NCBI GenBank assembly: GCA_020629155.1
Contig: JAHDDW010000010.1
Location: 1-64,000 of the forward strand
Source of the DNA: Acidimicrobiales bacterium
GTDB lineage: Bacteria > Actinomycetota > Acidimicrobiia > Acidimicrobiales > SZUA-35
Direction of reading: 5' to 3'
Length of the DNA: 64,000 nucleotides
Under the pieces are notes generated by a model. It worked only from the letters and a program-made list of their open reading frames with translations, did not search any database and was not told the DNA's origin. Numbering within the stretch: the first letter of the stretch is position 1; each line of letters opens with the position of its first letter. Below, one piece after another: positions 10,997 to 61,297 of this stretch. A program made the position numbers and the translations under genes.

Positions 10997-11040
10997 TATC
11001 TTCCTTCTTTAGGTGTCGCCTTATAGTGTACATCTCCTTA

Positions 11041-11112
11041 GCATTTCCGCTGCGCTTGGCGCGTTGCCACGTAGGTTTGGCGTTTCCTAGTCAAATAATT
11101 CGGTAGAAAACT
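11041..11112 (+). repeat. Degenerate copy of the TIR-hairpin intergenic repeat (R4)
   Basis: The segment ATTTCCGCTGCGCTTGGC and the following AAAACTG tail align with the core of the elements at 55708-55825 and 36936-37064. The leading hairpin is absent and the terminal repeats are eroded. Confidence 0.5.
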
Positions 11113-11162
11113 GTTTCAAGGCTCTCTAGTAAATGATGGCAACGAGTGTTTCAATTTAATGC

Positions 11163-36935: not shown

Positions 36936-37064
36936 TTAAGGGAATGTCTAGTAACTATACATTCCCTCGGTATTCCCGCTCCGCTCGGGGCGCTAGCACG
37001 CAGCTTTTAGCGTTTTTTTGGTAACGCGGTTCAGCAGAAAAACAATAAATAGACATACCCTTAA
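36936..37064 (+). repeat. TIR-hairpin intergenic element R1
   Basis: The ends TTAAGGGAATGTCTA (36936-36950) and its near-complement (37050-37064) differ at one base. Next to the left end, GGGAATGT pairs with ACATTCCC (36959-36966). The core CCGCTCCGCTCGGG and AGCACGCAGCTTTTAGCG is shared with other copies in the window. No gene is inside. Confidence 0.75.
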
Positions 37065-39454: not shown

Positions 39455-39512
39455 TTGGTCTTGGGATAAACTAGCACAACAGTTCACCGAGCTTTATGAA
39501 ATAATTTCGTAG
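39453..39512 (+). repeat. Second copy of the glgA 3' end
   Basis: Bases 39453-39499 match 38482-38528 at 43 of 47 positions. The translation DWSWDKLAQQFTELYEIIS then a stop is still a plausible GlgA C-terminus. The two copies bracket the decayed winged-helix and DUF1016 remnants. Confidence 0.75.
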
Positions 39513-39558
39513 CAACGAAACTAATTGTAGATGTCCTCGCAGTTTAGTCGCCGCTGGA

Positions 39559-39649
39559 GCTTTCTCGCTTTGCGCAGACCGTTAGAATGCAGCTTTAGTG
39601 TTTCTGGGGTAAAGTGATTCGCAGAAAAAGAATAATGAAGAGAGCATAG
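39559..39649 (+). repeat. Degenerate TIR-hairpin repeat R6
   Basis: TGCAGCTTTAGTGTTT and the tail CGCAGAAAAAGAATAATGA align with R1 (ACGCAGCTTTTAGCGTTT and CAGCAGAAAAACAATAA). The leading hairpin is missing. Confidence 0.5.
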
Positions 39650-47723: not shown

Positions 47724-47778
47724 TGCTTGTTTTTCTGAAAATGTTGTGACTCTGTCACCTCTGGGTTCAGGATTACAG

Positions 47779-47899
47779 GCTATCTCTCATTTATTCGTTT
47801 TGTATCGAATCGTTTTGCTATAGAACCGCTAAATTCTGCGTGAAAACGTCCCGAGCGGAGCGGAAATACCGAGGGCATCTATAATAAATAGAGATGCCC
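47779..47899 (-). repeat. TIR-hairpin intergenic element R2
   Basis: Read on the minus strand, GGGCATCT...AGATGCCC forms the end hairpin (47892-47899 with 47873-47880). The core is CCGCTCCGCTCGGGACG. The far end AATAAATGAGAGATAGCC is the near-complement of the first 17 bases, giving terminal inverted repeats. It fills most of the gap 47545-47909. Confidence 0.75.
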
Positions 47900-47909
47900 T
47901 ATCTATCTC

Positions 47910-51956: not shown

Positions 51957-52033
51957 ATCACAATCATAGCTGCTTGAAATTGTGTCAAAGTTGTAGGAAT
52001 TCTGGTTGTCTCTGATGAATTGTAGGTGCTCTG

Positions 52034-52118
52034 TGTATTGCGCTCCGCTCGGGCGTTTGCACATAACTTGTGCGATTCTAGTGTGTAGCATGACAGAAAA
52101 AACAACCAGCTAGACATA
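52034..52118 (+). repeat. Degenerate TIR-hairpin repeat R5
   Basis: GCGCTCCGCTCGGGCG, a central AT-rich part and the tail GCTAGACATAG align with R1. The leading hairpin is not evident. It lies between the oxidoreductase and ABC genes. Confidence 0.5.
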
Positions 52119-52153
52119 GTTTGAATGTAGATTTTCTAGCTAAGGTATTCCGT

Positions 52154-55698: not shown

Positions 55699-55707
55699 AG
55701 ACTAGAG

Positions 55708-55825
55708 GCTATCTCTGCTTATTGGTTTCCTGTCCAAACGGTCTAACGGAAACCTGCTGAAAGCTGCGTGCTAACGTGCCAAGCGCAGCGGAAATATAGT
55801 GGGCATCTACATTTGAGAGATGCCC
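55708..55825 (-). repeat. TIR-hairpin intergenic element R3
   Basis: On the minus strand it starts GGGCATCT...AGATGCCC (55818-55825 with 55801-55808). It continues CCGCTGCGCTTGGCACG and CACGCAGCTTTCAGC and ends AATAAGCAGAGATAGCC, which is the near-complement of its start. It lies directly after the permease stop and may also end that transcript. Confidence 0.75.
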
Positions 55826-55917
55826 TAAAATTCGTCTTCTTGCGGCTGCGGTGGTGCTTGTTGTTTCATGGTCTACAGTGGATGACGTAACTATTTTCTT
55901 CTCTTTGGAGTCAAACT

Positions 55918-57051: not shown

Positions 57052-57124
57052 AGGGCAGTGGCTCAATTGGTAGAGCGACGGTCTCCAAAACCGTAGGTTG
57101 GGGGTTCGAGTCCCTCCTGCCCTG
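57052..57124 (+). tRNA. tRNA-Trp (CCA)
   Basis: A full cloverleaf: acceptor AGGGCAG pairs with CTGCCCT, the anticodon stem ACGGT/ACCGT encloses CTCCAAA with anticodon CCA, and the T-loop is GGTTCGAGTCC. The discriminator is G, and CCA is not encoded. tRNA-Trp ahead of secE-nusG is a common arrangement. Confidence 0.95.
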
Positions 57125-61162: not shown

Positions 61163-61166
61163 TGAT

Positions 61167-61260
61167 GAGGGGAGGTCTAGATTTTATAGACCTCCCCTCA
61201 CTATTCCGCCGTGTTTGGTGCGTTTGCACGTAAGCCATTGAGCGGAATACTGCTTTAGAA
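61167..61260 (+). repeat. Hairpin plus degenerate TIR-repeat R7 after rplL
   Basis: GAGGGGAGGTCTA (61167-61179) pairs perfectly with 61187-61199 and is directly followed by TATTCCGCCGTGTTTGG and TTTGCACGTAAGC, resembling the core that follows the end hairpin in R1-R3. It probably also terminates the rplJL message. Confidence 0.5.
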
Positions 61261-61268
61261 GTAAAAAA

Positions 61269-61297
61269 GACCCTCAGTAAAACGCTGAGGGTCTTTT
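61269..61297 (+). terminator. Intrinsic terminator after rplL
   Basis: GACCCTCAG (61269-61277) pairs with CTGAGGGTC (61285-61293) followed by four T, with A-run before it, so it can work in both directions. It is the second hairpin behind rplL. Confidence 0.85.

Follow-up and report, generated by a model that had tools for sequence, protein, structure and literature searches.

The short intergenic repeats that recur along the window, by which we mean the whole 64,000-nt stretch of DNA analysed here, very probably represent a family of miniature non-autonomous DNA transposons (MITEs) of the ERIC, Correia and RUP kind. A first-pass annotation had offered a small non-autonomous transposable element as one of two readings, and their copy number, sharp ends, 2-bp duplication, terminal repeats and private distribution agree with that description. 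Bacterial MITEs are defined by their size, non-coding nature, terminal inverted repeats, target duplication, TA at the termini, A+T-richness and dispersed intergenic copies (PMC2229807). The repeats analysed here are shorter than 200 bp, non-coding and A+T-rich, they carry terminal inverted repeats and a target duplication, and their many copies are mostly intergenic; they also form a stem-loop of the sort described for such elements (PMC2229807; PMC3049150; PMC10969869). Among the observations that count against this reading, no transposase with matching ends was found among the DDE_3, DDE_Tnp_1 and rve families, and the duplication is not always TA. Two further features are the family's own, namely a hairpin that pairs the left terminal repeat with an inverted copy of itself, and the re-making of stop codons at the insertion junction.

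Three copies in the window (R1, R2 and R3) had been proposed to share one plan, and they prove homologous from end to end, not in the hairpin alone, with a mean column identity of 79%. A covariance model trained on 27 copies, including R1–R3 and excluding four degenerate copies of the window, scores the three at 133.5, 147.2 and 113.8 bits, respectively. In a search of the window, the same model recovers all four of the degenerate relatives that had been noticed near 11041, 39559, 52034 and 61167, with E-values from 6e-8 to 1e-4. The copies and their parts are as follows:

36939..37061, + strand: copy R1, of the GGGAATGTC-end subfamily, with a TA/TA duplication at 36937-36938 and 37062-37063
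36940..36966, + strand: R1 left-end hairpin GGGAATGTCTA...TACATTCCC, formed by the outer left terminal repeat and its own inverted copy
36977..36992, + strand: R1 internal stem CGCTCC-GCTCG-GGGCG, whose covarying pair corresponds to model columns 45-53
37050..37061, + strand: R1 right terminal repeat TAGACATACCCT
47777..47900, - strand: copy R2, of the main subfamily, with flanks AT/GT (one mismatch); its left end comes 7 bp after a gene's stop codon (gene end 47910)
47873..47899, - strand: R2 left-end hairpin GGGCATCTCTATTTATTATAGATGCCC
55706..55826, - strand: copy R3, with flanks TT/CT; its right end faces a permease gene (gene end 55698), whose stop codon is 5 bp away
55801..55825, - strand: R3 left-end hairpin GGGCATCTCTCAAATGTAGATGCCC
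11009..11129, + strand: degenerate copy, 46.3 bits, E 5.7e-8
39507..39649, + strand: degenerate copy with an altered core, 36.6 bits, E 7.5e-6
52001..52124, + strand: degenerate copy, 33.7 bits, E 3.2e-5
61166..61288, + strand: degenerate copy, 31.2 bits, between the rplL stop codon (ORF end 61162) and the rplL terminator (61265-61297)

As had been claimed, each of the seven copies in the window occupies a gap, and several do adjoin stop codons, with R2 and R3 at the distances given above and the 61166 copy within a few bp. The true ends of R1 fall 2–3 bp inside the limits first drawn for it (36936-37064). The 15-bp terminal repeat with one mismatch attributed to this copy is present (TTAAGGGAATGTCTA / TTAAGGGTATGTCTA), but it is composed of the duplication, the flanking T/A and the element end. 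The rplL terminator, behind the degenerate copy, is a strong bidirectional intrinsic terminator, and Rfam places a tRNA gene at 57052-57124 of the window (72.6 bits).

The element is 123 bp long (A-GGGCATCTCTA...TAGAGATAGCC-T) and combines imperfect terminal repeats with a left-end hairpin and an internal stem; the alignment of 27 copies yields the consensus AGGGCATCTCTATTTATTRTAGATGCCCTCGGTATTTCCGCTCCGCTCGGGGCGTTTCCACGCAGATTTTAGCGGTTCTCTGGTAAARCGATTCGATACAAAACGAATAAATAGAGATAGCCT, flanked by ta on either side. The family terminal repeat is usually shorter than that of R1 and imperfect (AGGGCATCTCTA / AGGCTATCTCTA, about 10 of 12 positions matching), and over 17 bp its mean identity is only 56%. 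Its end motifs are found at 35 sites, against 6 for a reversed-pattern control, and the subfamilies bear the motifs GGGCATC, GGGAATG, GGGGATG, GGGGATC, GGCGATG and GGTATG. Coevolution of the left and right repeats within a copy was looked for and none was detected, the two ends being no more alike within one copy than between copies (0.556 vs. 0.551). Translation of three copies reveals no conserved ORF and stops in most frames, and the A+T-richness of the copies amounts to a small difference in GC content (44.4%, against 47.5% for the window).

The family extends throughout the genome. With R2 as a DNA query, 41 matches are obtained, about 20 of them near full length at 80–91% identity, and the covariance model yields at least 140 matches at E<=1 in the 3.17-Mb genome. 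Of these, 118 pass E<0.001, and 54 fall at E<=1e-14, the latter being full length (1-127) in nearly every case; with the best 150 candidates scored, the total is a lower bound. Nearest neighbours among the copies are only about 83% identical on average (94% at most), and the copies are hence judged to be old. A few loci show rearranged forms. At L085:1340-1640 (C5:350926-351135), three units of the core module follow one another head to tail at a period of roughly 68 bp, outside any complete element, and two head-to-tail copies seemingly share one common end, as if fused, at L081:1500-1751 (C58:80418-80650). A tandem duplication of about 26 bp lies within the left hairpin region of one copy (L010:1497-1649; C30:128659-128811), and an orphan right-end fragment (L062:1406-1450) sits about 40 bp from a complete copy of opposite orientation.

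A scan of all direct-repeat registers around 55 strong copies places the best register at 2 bp, exactly at the element junctions, and no register for longer duplications (3–10 bp) performs better. The 2-bp flanks are identical in 22 of the 55 copies, against 9.35 expected, a value not reached in 20000 shuffles (P<5e-5). The duplication is preceded by T in 34/55 copies and followed by A in 44/55, pointing to a T-NN-A target, and the element is therefore taken to begin with A-GGG and to end with CC-T. The identical pairs comprise TA (9), AA (6), TT (4), CA (2) and AT (1). Since the element has A as its first base and T as its last, the register may be off by 1 bp; a TA target may apply to most copies, and the two CA/CA copies do not fit it.

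The insertion junctions bear a close relationship to the ends of genes. Among 73 copies assessed against gene positions from a simple codon-usage gene caller, 67 lie outside predicted genes and 6 overlap one. Stop-facing ends fall within 10 bp of the stop codon in 31 of 64 cases, 15 of the 64 being at -4 to -2, and start-facing ends come equally close in 7 of 76 cases, with no pile-up. At the -4 to -2 junctions the stop codon consists of the duplicated bases together with the first base(s) of the element or a preceding T (TA+A, T+AG, T+AA); at 15 stop-facing ends, its bases come from the duplication, from the terminal A or AG of the element, or from both. When the element is removed and the flanks are joined, a stop in the same frame is found in 7 of these 15 junctions, and insertion into the stop codon was thus silent. 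The clearest case (L076) involves convergent genes on a shared TTAA (GAT-TAA / CAT-TAA), where both genes retain their TAA, one on each side of the element. The joined flanks of the other 8 junctions lack an in-frame stop, reflecting either later mutation or entry of the element just inside the gene. The end adjoining a stop codon is the left one in 18 cases and the right one in 13; orientation to genes is therefore not fixed and either end may face them, and copies that share the orientation of both neighbouring genes are in weak excess (24 vs. 11).

The MITE reading suggests a simple course of events. Acting in trans, a transposase would insert the roughly 123-bp element, bounded by A-GGG and CC-T, at T-NN-A targets, which most often resemble TTAA, and each insertion would duplicate 2 bp. 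The surviving copies would be chiefly those in harmless positions, and the TA within a stop codon would be one such favoured position: together with the terminal A or AG of the element, the TA (or T) produced by duplication would restore TAA or TAG, and the gene would keep its end. Convergent genes with TTAA as overlapping stops could both keep theirs. Once inserted, copies would decay nearly neutrally.

The end hairpins had been reported to differ by paired changes, and such changes are real and occur also in a second, internal stem. Under a structure-free score, covariation is strongest at three column pairs: 45-53, in the internal stem, and two of the left hairpin, 10-24 and 7-27; the covariation alignment was made with the model and leans to its structure, and the same changes are visible in an independent MAFFT alignment. 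Across 88 copies, the paired fraction of stem cells is 90.4%, against 78.8% when shuffled and 31–57% with the partners slid, and doubly changed stem cells number 116, against 36 in shuffles. Pair 7-27 spans four Watson-Crick types (CG, GC, AT and TA), and the right-end column matching position 7 is mostly A, whatever the base at position 7; the covariation is accordingly a property of the hairpin, rather than of a protein-binding site common to the two ends. Stem covariation of this extent exceeds the prediction of the simplest MITE model, and its cause may be either a need of transposition or the correction of arms by template switching in hairpin DNA.

Selection by the host on a dispersed functional RNA or terminator module, with hairpins in the 3' UTR serving as terminators, processing sites or mRNA stabilisers, would be in keeping with the doubly changed stem cells, the frequent position just past stop codons and the weak co-orientation excess, yet it is quite improbable in the light of several observations. 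Wobbles over 12 stem pairs are similar in number on the two strands (36 plus-strand G-T/T-G against 47 minus-strand A-C/C-A), so that the copies bear no sign of RNA-strand selection, and the left hairpin is followed by UCGGUAUUUCCGC and not by a U-tract. Furthermore, stop codons contact either end of the element, the rplL copy stands in front of a separate, ordinary terminator, and the element has no Rfam relative and is absent from the related genomes searched. The "mobile RNA/terminator module" offered as an alternative by the first-pass annotation is hence not supported.

The restriction of the hairpin to one end, and the passage of pair 7-27 through all four Watson-Crick types opposite a right-end column that is mostly A, could also be accommodated by a hairpin-dependent single-strand mobile element (an IS200/IS605-like PATE, a REP-like element or a new mechanism), with the left hairpin as its recognition site. 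IS200/IS605 elements lack terminal inverted repeats and insert without duplicating their target, but the present family has both such repeats and a duplication, and such an origin appears very improbable. In an asymmetric MITE with a folded structure, mobilised by an unknown enzyme, spread would need the hairpins, through an extruded DNA or RNA stage; arm pairs would have been selected over many source lineages with the right end fixed, and stop codons would act as safe landing sites. This form of the MITE reading is unlikely, if somewhat less so than either of the foregoing proposals.

A refinement of the same reading, in which an otherwise ordinary MITE has its arms corrected by template switching during replication, deserves more weight, although we would put it at somewhat below an even chance. 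Template switching has been described for hairpins and quasipalindromes (PMC8794818; PMC7202029), and a mutational origin is consistent with pairs 45-53 and 10-24, where C-G and G-C are both common and C-C or G-G intermediates are almost absent. Against it, no loop inversions were noticed, and the tree is too poorly resolved to identify double changes made in a single step: arm changes on the best tree number 17, 11, 7 and 10, with too few supported branches for a sign test.

With respect to the mover, the genome contains no DDE_3 (IS630-type) gene, and neither its one DDE_Tnp_1 gene, on a 3.1-kb contig, nor its two rve genes are framed by element ends, leaving no autonomous partner among the three transposase families tested. 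Ten solo end-motif sites were considered as possible partner ends; none was seen framing a transposase, and they are relic fragments or chance occurrences. A known partner is likewise missing for some of the bacterial MITEs accepted as such. The mover of the present family would have been a DDE transposase, since lost, with its copies left to neutral decay. An IS3-type transposase gene lies on a separate 12.5-kb contig (C10, locus L114), whose other genes look foreign to the assembly and which is possibly contamination or a mobile replicon.

Searches outside the genome returned no copy in 40 relatives (2 of the same genus and 22 of the same family), nor in 11 of these under a more permissive search. 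None was found in about 400 genomes of the order in a coarser search scoring the best 8 candidates per genome, in IMG/VR by exact pattern, or in the plasmids and phages searched. The single pattern match among genome contigs, in an Acidimicrobiales MAG, is due to chance and is not matched by the covariance model. At gathering score, a tRNA is the sole Rfam match in the window, and four copies with their flanks give none at E<=0.1; the first-pass annotation could not match the repeat to a named one, and the searches made here likewise return no match. The assembly contains no 16S rRNA gene, and a 5S-like sequence and the types of protein encoded tentatively point to Actinomycetota. The closest members of the genus are fairly distant (ribosomal L7/L12 73–74% identical), and neither of the two same-genus genomes carries the element after rplL. 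In one of them (G002, L118:1890-2035), an unrelated short tandem repeat (GTTAACGTCGTTCTGATCTAGCG) followed by the palindrome GTCATTCTGAACTTGATTCAGAATCT sits after rplL, where the window's genome has its element.

The nearest families in plan are ERIC, RUP, Correia and QMITE1/2, with no sequence likeness in the searches made, QMITE being compared by description. The family resembles the 127-bp ERIC/IRU elements of enterobacteria in size, in its many old intergenic copies, short imperfect terminal repeats and TA-type duplication, and in its stable fold and occurrence at the 3' ends of genes (PMC2229807; PMC10969869). It shows no sequence likeness to them in Rfam, plasmid and phage searches, and differs in a T-NN-A target that is not strictly TA and in having a one-end hairpin of terminal repeat and own inverted copy together with an internal covarying stem. 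The 107-bp RUP of Streptococcus pneumoniae is likewise small, with about 100 copies, terminal repeats and duplication on insertion (PMC3049150), but it has a matching IS630 partner in its genome, whereas no DDE_3 gene was found here. Correia elements (NEMIS) of Neisseria likewise exceed 100 copies between genes, carry terminal repeats and duplicate their target, and they have TA at their ends, as may most copies here (PMC2229807; PMC10969869), but their matching ends span about 24 bp, against about 10 of 12 positions here, and they often lie upstream of genes, whereas the present copies abut stop codons. In Coxiella, QMITE1 shows variable duplications of 2–3 nt, and QMITE2 resides for the most part in the 3' UTR, overlapping C-termini slightly (PMC5896051); both are longer and of different structure, and are set apart by description, not by sequence.

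The repeats of this genome would thus constitute a new, well-populated and precisely bounded MITE family, offering more than 100 copies in which target choice, stop-codon tolerance and the coevolution of hairpin arms can be measured. With its covarying stems, the family can serve to test whether compensatory changes within repeats arise by selection or by template switching, and its stop-codon junctions suggest a simple reason for the build-up of such elements at the ends of genes.
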